This document shows, piece after piece, positions 6,388-29,947 of a stretch of 34,576 nt of DNA. How positions within the stretch are numbered: the first letter of the stretch is position 1; each line of letters opens with the position of its first letter. Origin of the DNA: an uncultured Chthonomonas sp. (GTDB lineage Bacteria > Armatimonadota > Chthonomonadetes > Chthonomonadales > CAJBBX01); NCBI GenBank assembly GCA_903885605.1, contig CAISJD010000025.1, positions 1 through 34,576 on the forward strand, in the 5' to 3' direction. The position numbers and the translations under genes are program-made. The notes beneath the pieces were generated by a model that saw only the letters and a program-made list of their open reading frames with translations, was not told where the DNA came from and searched no databases.

Positions 6388-6492
6388 GGTCAGAGGCCTT
6401 TCGTTCGGTCGATGGCACGCCGATGTTATGGCACGAAACGCCGACGCACGTGGTAGAGTGCCCTGAACGGGTGCGCCGCCGCACTCCGCCCT

Positions 6493-6520
6493 TTGGCCTT
6501 TCGCCTTTTGGCTTTATACT
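6493..6520 (+). promoter_or_regulatory. Candidate sigma70-type promoter for the glycosidase gene
   Basis: TTGGCC (6493-6498) and TATACT (6515-6520) are separated by 16 bases. The -10 hexamer matches the consensus in five of six positions and the -35 in four. It lies in a relatively AT-rich patch about 45 bases before the ATG at 6566. It is a sequence match only. Confidence 0.4.
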
Positions 6521-6565
6521 TTGGACTCCAGACTTCCGCCGCTTGACCCCCGAGGAGCGCCAACC

Positions 6566-9500
6566 ATGCACATCGCGCTGTCGGTCTTGCTTCTCGCCGC
6601 ACCAGCGGCGGCCGAGCCTACCACCGGTACGACCATCATGGAGGCCCGCTTCGGCCGCGCCGAAATCGATACCGTGCGCCCCGCGCTCCGGTCGCTGACG
6701 CTCCGGCGGTCGGGCGGGGCGCTGGAGCCCCACTCGATCCTGGCGCCCATCGGCAGCCCCTGGCCGCGCGGCGTGGCGGGATGGGCCGAAGGCGGCTACA
6801 CCTACGCGGTGGATGCGGCCGGCAGGCGCTACGAGAGCCGCTACCTGCGCCCGGACCGCGTGGTCACGAGCGCACCGGGAAAGCTGATCCTGGAGGGCGT
6901 GAAGCTGGCGGCGGGGCCGGACGAGAAGCCCGTAGCAACCGAGCGCTGGGTGCTTTGCACCGTGGGCGGCGACCTCTCGTGGAGCGTGGAGCGGCGTTGG
7001 CTCGTCCCCTTCACGGCGCGTCTGGCCGGTACGCCGGGCCTCTTCTCCTCCTTCCGGCGCGCCACCGACGCCGAGCTGCTGCCCAACTCCGTGACGCACA
7101 CGCTCTGGGTGCAGCCGGATGGCCTGCGCTCCTGGTTCGATCCCACCTACCGGGCGTGGCCCGCCGACTACAAGCTCTCGGTGGACAACTGCGCCGTCGT
7201 CACCAAGCCCGACACATGGGCCGTGGCCAAGCTCTGGACCAGCTGGCACGCCGAGGCCGACCCGAAGCTGACGGTCAAGGGCGGACACCTCTATCGCAGA
7301 GGCTTCTTCGGCTGGCGAGCCGAACTGGGCGCGGTCTCTTCGCCGGTGATGCCGCGGACCTACCGTGCGGGCGAGGTCGAGCGCGTGACGCTGACCGTGG
7401 CGACCGTCGACAAACGCGCCACAGGCTACCAGTTGGCCGCCCATGTGCCGGACAAGGAGGTCCAGGGCGCCCTCCAGAGCTTCTACGCATCGCTGCTCAA
7501 CGGCGGCGTGGTGAACGACCAGAAGCACTTCAACTTCGGCAACGAGACGGACGGCTGGTACTACGACGGCTCGACCTGGATGCAGGGCCTGGCTTTGGCG
7601 GCGGGCGTGCCGGCGGCAGGCAAGACGGCGCAGGATCCGTATGACGTGGCCTCCGCCTTCCGAGGCCACCTGGCAGCCATCGTGGGGACGCTGGACCCGA
7701 CCGGCCGCGCCAACTTCGGCTACGACTGGGGCGGCGGGTTCGCCGATGCGCGGCTGAACAACGTCATCGGCGCACGGGAGTACCTGCTCCATACCGGCGA
7801 CCTGGCCTTCGTCAAGCAGATCCTGCCGGACCTGGAACGCGGCGTGGGCTGGTTCCTGGCGCGCCGCAAGGAACATGGGCTGGCCGATCTGGGCGAGGTG
7901 GCGCACTGGTACTACGACGCCATGCCCAGCAGCGGCGTGAACGCCAACCACAACGCCCTGCTCTACCGCGCGTGCCGGCATCTGGCGGAGATGGAGGGCG
8001 CGGCAGGCCATGGCGACAAGGCGCGCACGTACACAGAGATCGCCGACGAGGTTCGGGCGGCCTTCAACGCCCTCCTCTGGAACGAGGAGGCGCCCGGCGG
8101 CCCGCGCATTACCGACTGGATCGCGCACAACGGCGAGAAGGTGACCTACGCGGCCGACGTCTGCCAGTTCCCGGCCGTGGCGTTCGGCATGGTCCCGCAG
8201 GACCGCGCGCGCAGGCTGCTGGCCACGCTGGACCGGCGCATCGCCGAACTGGAGCGCGACACCGGCTACACGGGCTCGGCCTCGCTCTCGGCCTACTGGC
8301 CCGTGCCCGATCACATCAACGGATTGGCCTGGCAGCGCGCCTTTCCGATCTACATGAACTGTGGCTCGTTCCTCTCGATCACCTACTACGAGATCATGGC
8401 GCGCATCCAGGCCGGCGACATCGACGGCGCGTGGGAGCGCATGAGGCGCTTCAGCCAGGGCATCCGGCGGCACAGCGGCGCGGGCAACAACTGGGTGACC
8501 GTCAAGGGCGAGGTGGCCGCGGGGGCCGACGAGCCATACCTGTCGGACATGGTGGTGGTTCCCGCGGCTCTGGTGCGCGGCTTCCTCGGCATCGAGCCCA
8601 CGTGGGACCGGCTCGTGGTGCGGCCGCACCTGCCAAAGGGCTGGAAGCGCGCCTCCGCAGAAATCCTCTACAAGGGCGTGCGGACGCGCGTAGACATCGA
8701 GGGCCAAGAGGTCACGGTGACGCCGCTGGGCCGCGCGTTTACGCCCGCCAAGTCCCTCACGTGGGAGGTTCGCTCCGGGCCCGCGGCCGAGTGGCAGATG
8801 ACGGTATCGCGCCACTTCGCCAACGGCGCCACCCCGCCGCGGGTGAGCGCGGGCATCGACCTGCACGGCGGCTCGGCGGTGACGCTCAGGCGCGTCCGTC
8901 CCGCCCACGGACTGGGCGGGCGCTGGTCCATGGACGCGCAGGGCGTCCTGGGTGCGGAGGGACCGATGGCGTTCGGCCTGCCGGGCCCGCTCCCCGGCAT
9001 AGGTTCCGCGCGGTTTGAGGGCCAGAGCCACCTGTCGGCACCGAACCCGGGAGCCTTCAGCTTCGGCCCGACGGAGAGCTTCACGGTGCAGTGCCGGTTC
9101 CAGACCAATGCGCAGGATAGCCGCGTGCTGGTCTCCCGGCCGAACGCCTACTGCCTCTACGTGAAGGAGGGCAAGCTGGCCGCGTGGATCATGCAGGACG
9201 GCCTCGCGCACCGCGAGGCGCTGGGCAGCGGCCAGGCGGCCGACGGCGCATGGCATCACGCCGCCGCCGTCTACGACCGCCGCGCACAGCGGCTCGCCCT
9301 CTACCTCGACGGCAGGCTTGACACTCCGGACGGCTCGCCCGCCCCGGCGAACCCCGTCGCAATCTCCGCCATCGGGGCCTCCACCAGTGGCGCGCCGGTG
9401 AGCATCGGCGGCCTGGGCCAGGGCTTCCGGTTCATCGGCTCGATAGCGGATGTGCGTATCCATGCCGGCGCCCTCACGGCCGGCGAGTTTTCCTACCCGT

Positions 9501-27584: not shown

Positions 27585-28682
27585 CTAGCGGACGGCCAAC
27601 TGGCGGGAGAGGTCGAGGTACCGCTTGATCCCCTCCGGCGTTACGTTCCACGGGATATGGTTGCCGACGCACATAAAATACCCGTCGGACATCCGGGCTG
27701 TCTCCGCCATGGAGGCGACCATGGCGCGGATCTCGTCGGGATCGTTGCGGGTCAGCACGCGGTTGTCACCCTCGCCGGCCAGCACGCAGTTCGGGTGGCG
27801 CCGGGCGATCGCCTTGAAGTCGGTGTAGGGTTCGGTGACGATGCCCGTGGCGCCGCAGGCCATCACGTCGTCGGCGTAGGCATCCATGCGGCCGTCCGAC
27901 ATGAAGATGACGCGCTTGCCGGCCGCCCGGGCGATGGACCAGAACTCTTCGTACTGGGGGAAGATGTGCTTGTTCATCCACGCCCGCGAGCAGACGGGGC
28001 CGCGTGTGTTGACGATGTCGTCATGGCAGACGATGAACCGGATCGGTAGCCGCGCGAAGGTGCGGAAGACGCGGCGATTGATCTCTGCGAACTCCTCCAT
28101 GACGCGGTCGAAGCGCGGGTCCAGGCAGGCCTCCATGAAGAGCTCCCAGCCGAAGACGAGCAGGGGCCACATGAACATGGTGTTGTAGAAGCCCGTGCCG
28201 GCATCGCTCCCTTCCGGCGCCTCATCGCCCCATTCGGCGGGGTAGTAGGAGCGGTAGAGTCGGTAGAGGGCCTCCTCGTCGCGGTAGTCGCGGCTCTCCA
28301 CCACGGGGATTGCGCTGTAGTCGGCGCTCTCCAGCGGCGAGTAGGCGAACACCTCGTCGAGGCTCTTGCAGGCGTGGCCCCAGTCCCAGCGCCAGGTCTC
28401 GCCGTCGCCCCACCGCACGTGGTGGCGGCCGTCGGCGTCGCCTGACGAGCTGTGGGACCCGAGGTCGAGCTCCGGGCGGGGGCGGGGATCGTCGGTCTCG
28501 GGCGCTCCCAGGCCCAGTTCGGGATAGAGCTCCGCCAGGCGCAGGCGGCACTGGCGGGGGTGGTCGTAATAGTCGATGCCGGTTAGGTAGGTCTCGGCGT
28601 CGGGGCACGACCAGTGCTCCCAGTGGGCCACCTTGCGCGGCCCCGCGCCCATGTAGGTCAGGTATCGATCCGACGGCGTCAT
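27585..28682 (-). CDS. Uroporphyrinogen decarboxylase family protein (methyltransferase-like branch)
   Basis: A 365-residue protein. Its ATG overlaps the stop of the kinase-like gene as ATGA (28679-28682), so translation is coupled. The UroD-type TIM barrel shows ICHDDIVNTRGPVCSRAWMN near 233-253, AAGKRVIFMSDGRMD near 270-285 and VLAGEGDNRVL near 315. This is the UroD-superfamily branch that includes MtaA/CmuA-like methyltransferases and many uncharacterised proteins from glycan-degrading bacteria. No heme genes are nearby, so a true HemE role is unlikely. No corrinoid-binding protein is visible either. Its placement between a kinase-like gene and a peptide-binding lipoprotein is unexplained. 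Confidence 0.85.
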   Translation of the reverse strand: MTPSDRYLTYMGAGPRKVAHWEHWSCPDAETYLTGIDYYDHPRQCRLRLAELYPELGLGAPETDDPRPRPELDLGSHSSSGDADGRHHVRWGDGETWRWDWGHACKSLDEVFAYSPLESADYSAIPVVESRDYRDEEALYRLYRSYYPAEWGDEAPEGSDAGTGFYNTMFMWPLLVFGWELFMEACLDPRFDRVMEEFAEINRRVFRTFARLPIRFIVCHDDIVNTRGPVCSRAWMNKHIFPQYEEFWSIARAAGKRVIFMSDGRMDAYADDVMACGATGIVTEPYTDFKAIARRHPNCVLAGEGDNRVLTRNDPDEIRAMVASMAETARMSDGYFMCVGNHIPWNVTPEGIKRYLDLSRQLAVR

Positions 28683-29704
28683 GCCATGCCCTCCCGGAGC
28701 CGGGCGGCGATGGCCCGGCAGGCGTCGTCCAGCTGATGGAGCCCATCGGGGACGGTCAGGCGAGTGACCGGCGCTCGGGCGGCGGCTTCCGCCAGCAGGC
28801 TCATGCGTCCGGGCTGCCAGCCCATGGCCTCGACGAGCCGGGCCGAGAAGGAGTGGCGAACCAACTCTATGATAGACGCCGAGCCGGGCAGCGGGTGCAT
28901 GGCGAGGGCGCCGTTCTCGCGCCGTTCGGGCAGAAAGATGCCTCCCAGCGGCAGGACGCGGTCCGAGAAGCCGGCCCCGAGTTGCTCCACGGAGATCACG
29001 CGCTTGTCGGCCCGAGGATGCACCAGGGGCAGCGCCTCGGCTTGCAGGCCCAGCCGGGCCACCGAAGCGGGCCAGAGGCGCATGGCCGCGAAGCCCGGAC
29101 GGACGCCGATGCCCGTGGGCGTGCGCTGCAGGATGGCCACGTCGTCCGCGTGGAGCGGCAGGCCGCACCGGGTGAGGCCGGCGGCCAGGGTGCTCTTGCC
29201 ACCCGACTGCGAGGCGAGGAATAGGACCGCTCGCCCGTCGACCTCCACCGAGGAGGCGTGGATCGCCGCCGCTCCGTTGGCCTCGAACCAGACCGAGAGG
29301 ACGGCGCCGAGAAGCTGCGTGGCCCGGAGGTCGGGGTCCGGCTCAGGCCAGTCCCGGTAGCCGATGCTGTCGCCGCGGAGCAGGTAATCGCAGGAGTAGA
29401 GCTGCAGGTGGAGCCCTTCGGGGCATCGGCGAACGGTGATGGAGGGCACATCCCGCCAGCCCCAGGGACTCACGAAGCAGGGCTCGGATGCAGGCACGCG
29501 CAGGTCGGCGGGTCGGATGGCGACGGCCGGGCCGGAGCCCGCAAGAGGCAATGGGTACTGCACCGCATCCGGGTAGTCCAGAGCAAGGCCGTAGGCTCGG
29601 TAGAGGGGCAAGGGCGTCTGGTTCCGGTGCGGTAGACAAGCAGACGCAGCCCAAGGCAGGCTGGCTGCCCGGAGCTGCGTCAAGGTCTGATTGTGCGGGC
29701 GCAC
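28679..29704 (-). CDS. HPr-kinase-like P-loop protein (RiPP-associated HprK type)
   Basis: A 341-residue protein. A P-loop ASQSGGKST (164-172) is preceded by AIHASSV (148-154) and followed by LHADDVAIL, with Asp187-Asp188. This is the layout of the HPr kinase C-terminal domain, without the bacterial HPr kinase N-terminal domain. The first 110 residues are distinct (LYRAYGLAL near 34-42). Known relatives phosphorylate the C-terminal residue of lasso peptides (ThcoK/PadeK type) or sit in other RiPP and PqqD-linked clusters. The start is a GTG at 29704, 21 bases after the small peptide gene; its ribosome site is weak, so a later start is possible. Its stop overlaps the UroD-like start. No HPr or PTS gene is seen, so a role in sugar control is less likely. 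Confidence 0.83.
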   Translation of the reverse strand: MRPHNQTLTQLRAASLPWAASACLPHRNQTPLPLYRAYGLALDYPDAVQYPLPLAGSGPAVAIRPADLRVPASEPCFVSPWGWRDVPSITVRRCPEGLHLQLYSCDYLLRGDSIGYRDWPEPDPDLRATQLLGAVLSVWFEANGAAAIHASSVEVDGRAVLFLASQSGGKSTLAAGLTRCGLPLHADDVAILQRTPTGIGVRPGFAAMRLWPASVARLGLQAEALPLVHPRADKRVISVEQLGAGFSDRVLPLGGIFLPERRENGALAMHPLPGSASIIELVRHSFSARLVEAMGWQPGRMSLLAEAAARAPVTRLTVPDGLHQLDDACRAIAARLREGMA

Positions 29705-29725
29705 AGAGGCGCCGCGAGTGATCGC

Positions 29726-29851
29726 TTAGGTGAGGGTTCCGGTAGCGAGGTCGTCGCCGGGGCCGCCGGCGTTGCCCGCGGTAAGGTCCAGCAGCGAACC
29801 CCAGTCCGTCAGGACCGGCTCTTCGTAGGGCTGAACTTCAGTGACATTCAT
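29726..29851 (-). CDS. Candidate RiPP precursor with lasso-type leader motif, 41 residues
   Basis: The ATG at 29851 has GGAGG 8 bases upstream; an in-frame ATG at 29866 has poorer support. Residues 9-24 fit the lasso leader pattern Y-x2-P-x-L-x3-G-x5-T exactly: Tyr9, Pro12, Leu14, Gly18, Thr24. Cleavage after residue 25, by analogy, leaves a 16-residue core GNAGGPGDDLATGTLT. Gly1 of the core and Asp8 or Asp9 could form the macrolactam ring of a lasso peptide. The core is glycine-rich and has few bulky residues to hold a threaded tail, so another modification class is possible. It is the first gene of the operon and is followed by an HPr-kinase-like gene, a known tailoring partner. No lasso B or C protein is in the window. 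Confidence 0.72.
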   Translation of the reverse strand: MNVTEVQPYEEPVLTDWGSLLDLTAGNAGGPGDDLATGTLT

Positions 29852-29908
29852 TGCGGCAGCCTCCATGGTGTTCCCCGGGTGCACAAGCAGTCACACACCT
29901 AGGGTCCA

Positions 29909-29914
29909 AGTATA
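29909..29914 (-). promoter_or_regulatory. Candidate -10 element for the peptide/kinase operon
   Basis: TATACT on the minus strand, five of six consensus bases, lies about 58 bases before the ATG at 29851 in an AT-richer patch. No good -35 partner is seen. A second TATACT lies further upstream at 29975-29980. Confidence 0.3.
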
Positions 29915-29947
29915 CAGGTTACGCCGACAGGCGAACGGAAAACACGC

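Follow-up and report, generated by a model that had tools for sequence, protein, structure and literature searches.

The described systems closest to the locus reported here are lasso peptide pathways that include an HprK-like kinase. In the paeninodin (PadeK), ThcoK, SyanK and pseudomycoidin (PsmK) systems the genes form a cluster and phosphorylation occurs at the C-terminal Ser (PMC9266682). BsfK of Bradymonas sediminis targets core Ser3 and accepts Thr at this position, phosphorylation being boosted by B1, and the BsfA leader carries Ile at position -2 (PMC10368454). We analysed a stretch of DNA of 34,576 nt from an uncultured Chthonomonas sp. (Armatimonadota), referred to here as the window and comprising the entire contig C25, in which a small gene (A) lies next to a gene encoding an HprK-like protein (K; Table 1). 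The genes adjoining this pair encode a URO-D-like protein, a solute-binding protein and a thioredoxin. Inspection of the window around A-K revealed no gene for a lasso B or C protein, in agreement with an earlier interpretation of this DNA, hereafter the sequence-only reading.

Table 1. Features of the A-K locus and their positions in the window
Feature	Position	Strand	Remarks
URO-D-like gene (PF01208)	27585..28682	-	Shares 4 nt with the 3' end of the kinase gene
Predicted lasso-type HprK-like kinase gene, K	28679..29704	-	GTG start; first base 21 nt past the stop of A
Lasso precursor gene A, MNVTEVQPYEEPVLTDWGSLLDLTAGNAGGPGDDLATGTLT	29726..29851	-	41 aa plus stop codon (the 41 codons without it, 29729-29851); exact leader motif, conservation in three genomes, independent profile
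Predicted core, GNAGGPGDDLATGTLT	29729..29776	-	Cleavage site predicted from Thr(-2)
Leader peptide, residues 1-25, ending in YEEPVLTDWGSLLDLTA (Thr at -2)	29777..29851	-	Motif position and alignment with the leaders of 20 further kinase-linked precursors
Ribosome-binding site, GGAGG	29860..29864	-	8 nt 5' of the ATG of A; from sequence, kept in both sister genomes
Promoter-like block, TGTATACTTGGANCNTAGGTG	29896..29916	-	Upstream of A; conserved in all three genomes, putative function

Precursor gene A and the adjacent kinase

The predicted peptide of gene A matched the lasso leader motif Y9-x2-P12-x-L14-x3-G18-x5-T24 exactly. The motif alone was dropped as evidence, since strict matches at the DNA level were about equally common in a reversed control (two in the genome, one in the control). 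The NCBIfam lasso leader model NF033521 scored gene A at 17–18 bits, just under its cut-off of 19. A profile of 29 positions, built from 20 precursors located near related kinases in other genomes and excluding gene A, identified gene A as the only significant match in its own genome (E=1.5e-6; 5.6 Mb). The orthologues of gene A in two sister genomes were detected with E values of 1.7e-6 and 6e-5, and across all three genomes no further match below E=1 was obtained with this profile.

The sister genomes (G001 and G002) are Chthonomonas-like MAGs of the same genus within the Armatimonadota, all three genomes being drafts, and in both of them the kinase gene lies side by side with a gene for a 41-aa precursor. 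The sole change in the core across the three genomes was Leu/Ile at residue 10. Nucleotide changes in gene A were mostly synonymous for so short a frame, with dN/dS ratios (NG86) of 0.19–0.33 for the entire ORF and 0.09–0.17 from Tyr9 on. By these sequence measures gene A is under purifying selection, and its conservation and context lift the ORF above chance. The sequence-only reading had proposed a RiPP precursor carrying a lasso leader motif, preceded by a good ribosome site and followed 21 bases later by an HprK-like gene; the profile match and the retention of the short frame in both kinase-carrying relatives bear out the precursor, and site and spacing were recovered as described (Table 1). 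Lack of conservation in such relatives had been named there as a refutation, which did not materialise.

If cleavage takes place one residue past Thr(-2), the predicted core begins with Gly1 and carries Asp8 and Asp9 as candidate ring acceptors, in line with the lasso rule of Gly, Ala, Ser or Cys at core position 1 and Asp or Glu at positions 7–9. Position 3 is Ala. Since the core contains no Ser, Thr12, Thr14 and Thr16 are the candidate sites of phosphorylation by K; many of the kinase-linked precursors in the set have a C-terminal Ser and a few have Thr. Asp at core position 8 is common to gene A and the precursors of loci L057, L058, L059, L060 and L065. The core tail, LATGTLT, contains no bulky plug residue, as had been remarked before, which makes threading of the product doubtful. 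Cores without obvious plug residues were also found in the closest intact clusters, for example in L058 (GPSSGSTDGLSGSGGT).

Judged by its sequence, K is a lasso-type HprK-like kinase, a member of a known family. The kinases of the sister genomes are 86–89% identical to K; as there is little conservation between the species over the first ~20 residues, the assignment of GTG as start codon is tentative. The predicted catalytic residues are His149, Lys170, Ser171, Asp187 and Asp188 as numbered from the start of the 341-aa frame (subtract 5 for alignment A1, whose first residue lies five positions further on), and the His, Gly-Lys and Asp-Asp positions were invariant in a kinase alignment of 35 sequences. 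The spacing of His, Lys-Ser and Asp-Asp is that given for BsfK (PMC10368454). The Walker A motif of K reads AxxSxGKS as against the full GxxGxGKS, with two of the three glycines of the BsfK motif replaced (by Ala and Ser), which may weaken nucleotide binding; the first Gly is likewise Ala in 18 of 67 relatives. Divergent Walker A motifs (for example SGNLSGKT and SSHGGGKS) were also observed in the closest kinases, L057–L062, most of which are encoded in lasso clusters.

A match of K to the NCBIfam model HprK_rel_A (TIGR04352) was confined to the P-loop region and scored 32.6 bits, not reaching the curated cut-off of 200. The structure model of K (pLDDT 90.6) had its best matches among PEPCK and HprK folds; PEPCK and HPr kinase are two families related in fold. 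A profile of the related kinases extended to solved HPr kinases. Scanning of GTDB genomes retrieved 80 kinase relatives from many phyla, and 65 of the 78 loci scored contained a cyclase in the fetched flank, as detected with profiles built in this analysis. The loci lacking a nearby cyclase include the two loci of the genus, several at contig ends and some distant matches. This distribution, together with the retention of the key catalytic residues, upholds the earlier assignment of the neighbour of A as an HprK-like gene. The URO-D-like gene was ruled out as a tailoring enzyme: its orthologues (73–76%) are present in four genomes of the family that lack the kinase, and it probably lies outside the pathway.

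The remote enzyme locus and its relationship to A-K

The sequence-only reading had suggested that the missing enzymes might be encoded elsewhere, and a search of the whole genome for C and B proteins revealed a full set on contig C82 (about 43,050-45,660), where genes for a PqqD-like protein (E; Pfam PF05402), a B2 protease (NCBIfam NF033537, 60.8 bits, cut-off 33) and an asparagine-synthetase-like cyclase (C) are contiguous and arranged head to tail. The best NCBIfam match of the cyclase was the lasso cyclase model NF033535 (183.7 bits, below its exception-level cut-off of 525), and its SGGLDSS motif is intact. E and C abut other genes directly or nearly. The same trio was found in both sister genomes, on a contig other than that of A-K, and in none of the three genomes was a leader-like small ORF present close to the trio. 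Measured from contig ends, the distance between the two loci is no less than about 37 kb in the genome under study (4.7 kb plus 32.3 kb), about 29 kb in G002 and about 15 kb in G001. In these three genomes the precursor is therefore not clustered with the B and C genes, clustering being a customary criterion for lasso pathways and not a strictly defining one. The promoter-like block of A was not seen upstream of E, and no promoter common to both loci was found.

Further matches to asparagine synthetase (C22, C105 and C120) and to PqqD (C76 and C5) were obtained in the same genome, and a search of plasmid records gave no match. Two other kinase-like loci were set aside, one on contig C3 adjoining a glycosyltransferase-like gene (by appearance), and one on C165 (L016), where no lasso B2 or C was found. 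The latter (6431-9380) is a cassette of a PqqD-like protein, an HprK_rel_A-like kinase and a nucleotidyltransferase-like protein, adjoining a small protein that combines a hydrophobic stretch with a tail rich in His, Asp and Thr.

The five best relatives of the cyclase outside the genus (L058, L057, L061, L060 and L059) are also the five best of the kinase. Overlap between the top-five lists of kinase and cyclase averaged 2.8 in intact loci and 0.64 in 505 mismatched pairs; full overlap occurred in one of these 505, a test limited by the fact that the cyclase pool itself had been fetched by kinase similarity. In both trees the kinase and cyclase of the genus fell into a 16-row group of identical membership, with the phylum-mates outside, and the branch dividing off this group had moderate support (80/93 and 83/58). 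C and K agree in their five nearest relatives outside the genus and in their tree group, as pieces of a single ancestral cluster would. The shorter proteins B2 and E did not share the nearest relatives of the kinase (rho 0.09 for B2).

In the phylum-mates the genes form single clusters, in the order C-A-K-E-B2 in G087 and E-B2-C-A-K in G072. The precursor of the G087 cluster, which continues with a nucleotidyltransferase gene after B2, is a lasso-type protein of 159 aa (L037, 6973-7452, minus strand) with the leader fused to an endosialidase-chaperone domain (Peptidase_S74, PF13884, 37.8 bits). In G072 the lasso kinase gene is directly followed by a gene resembling a P450-reductase fusion, by its appearance in sequence (L038, 7698-10889, plus strand).

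Proposed pathway and alternative explanations

We consider it probable that A-K and E-B2-C constitute a split lasso pathway, in which the remote operon works in trans on the product of the precursor-kinase locus. By analogy with characterised systems (PMC9266682, PMC10368454), the PqqD-like protein E would bind the YxxPxL leader of A, and K, helped by E, would probably phosphorylate a core Thr hydroxyl, perhaps that of the C-terminal Thr16, before the leader is removed. B2 would then cut A after TA, and C would form a probably threaded macrolactam by linking the amine of Gly1 to Asp8 (or Asp9). A tentative proposal, to which we assign a rather low likelihood, is that Thr phosphorylation by a kinase subgroup with divergent Walker A motifs and cyclisation in trans by the remote operon yield a Gly-rich, possibly unthreaded macrolactam carrying a phosphate. 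A and K belong to known families; it is the split arrangement that is unusual. The idea that the product might be a new class is unsupported on present evidence, as the cyclase, B2 and kinase belong to ordinary lasso families and plug-poor cores are not restricted to this genus.

The unlinked position of the two loci in all three genomes, the lack of a shared promoter block and the plug-free tail of A would also agree with A-K being a stand-alone phosphopeptide system without cyclisation, the E-B2-C operon then serving another precursor. This is unlikely, since no other precursor candidate was found in the genomes, the leader of A is complete, with Thr(-2) in place, a position read by E and B2 in known systems, and the cyclase and kinase point to a common ancestry. 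The displacement of A-K from the other lasso genes and the partial loss of the Walker-A glycines of K might suggest that what is left of an earlier lasso cluster is decaying here, but both genes are intact in all three species, A is under purifying selection and the kinases are closely similar, the catalytic residues are invariant, and the nearest relatives, L057–L062, have divergent Walker A motifs too, so that decay appears very improbable. Nor is there much to recommend the assumption that K is part of a metabolic operon with the URO-D-like and solute-binding genes and that the small ORF has a regulatory role or arose by chance: K does overlap the URO-D-like gene and the gene order is identical in all three genomes, but the URO-D-like gene also occurs in relatives without the kinase, the relatives of K are lasso-linked and the small ORF was found by a lasso-precursor profile, which makes this explanation exceedingly unlikely.

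If the split pathway is accepted as the preferred explanation, an orphan lasso precursor with a 'missing cyclase' can be assigned its enzyme by a search of the whole genome combined with matching of kinase and cyclase relatives. Split pathways of this kind would escape mining tools that demand an adjacent precursor and cyclase.

Comparison with known lasso systems

The kinase-tailored clusters of PadeK, ThcoK, SyanK and PsmK resemble A-K plus E-B2-C in comprising a precursor, B1, B2 and C proteins and an HprK-like kinase. In contrast to these clusters, A-K is not linked to E-B2-C, and the core of A ends in Thr. BsfK is an HprK-like kinase distant from K with the same spacing of His, Lys-Ser and Asp-Asp, whereas A differs from BsfA in that its core lacks Ser and has Ala as residue 3, and in that its leader has Thr at position -2.

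The kinases and cyclases closest to those of the genus are found in the intact clusters L057 (Acidobacteria gp7), L058 (a gammaproteobacterial MAG) and L059–L061, none of which has been characterised to our knowledge. Their leaders, such as YAPPHLKDWGSLSELTA-G, are like that of A, but unlike in the genus of A-K, cyclase and kinase lie within one cluster. Together with this genus, L057–L062 make up a kinase subgroup, spread over several phyla, in which the Walker A motif is unusual and the associated cores are poor in plug residues, and we know of no member of it that has been tested. A literature search of incomplete coverage revealed no lasso pathway in which the leader protease and the cyclase are encoded away from the precursor gene. 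The deiminase of citrulassin is a lasso peptide tailoring enzyme encoded elsewhere in the genome. Parts of the pathway are unlinked in citrulassin as they are here, but there the remote part is a tailoring enzyme, whereas in the genus of A-K it is the leader protease and cyclase that lie remote from the precursor.
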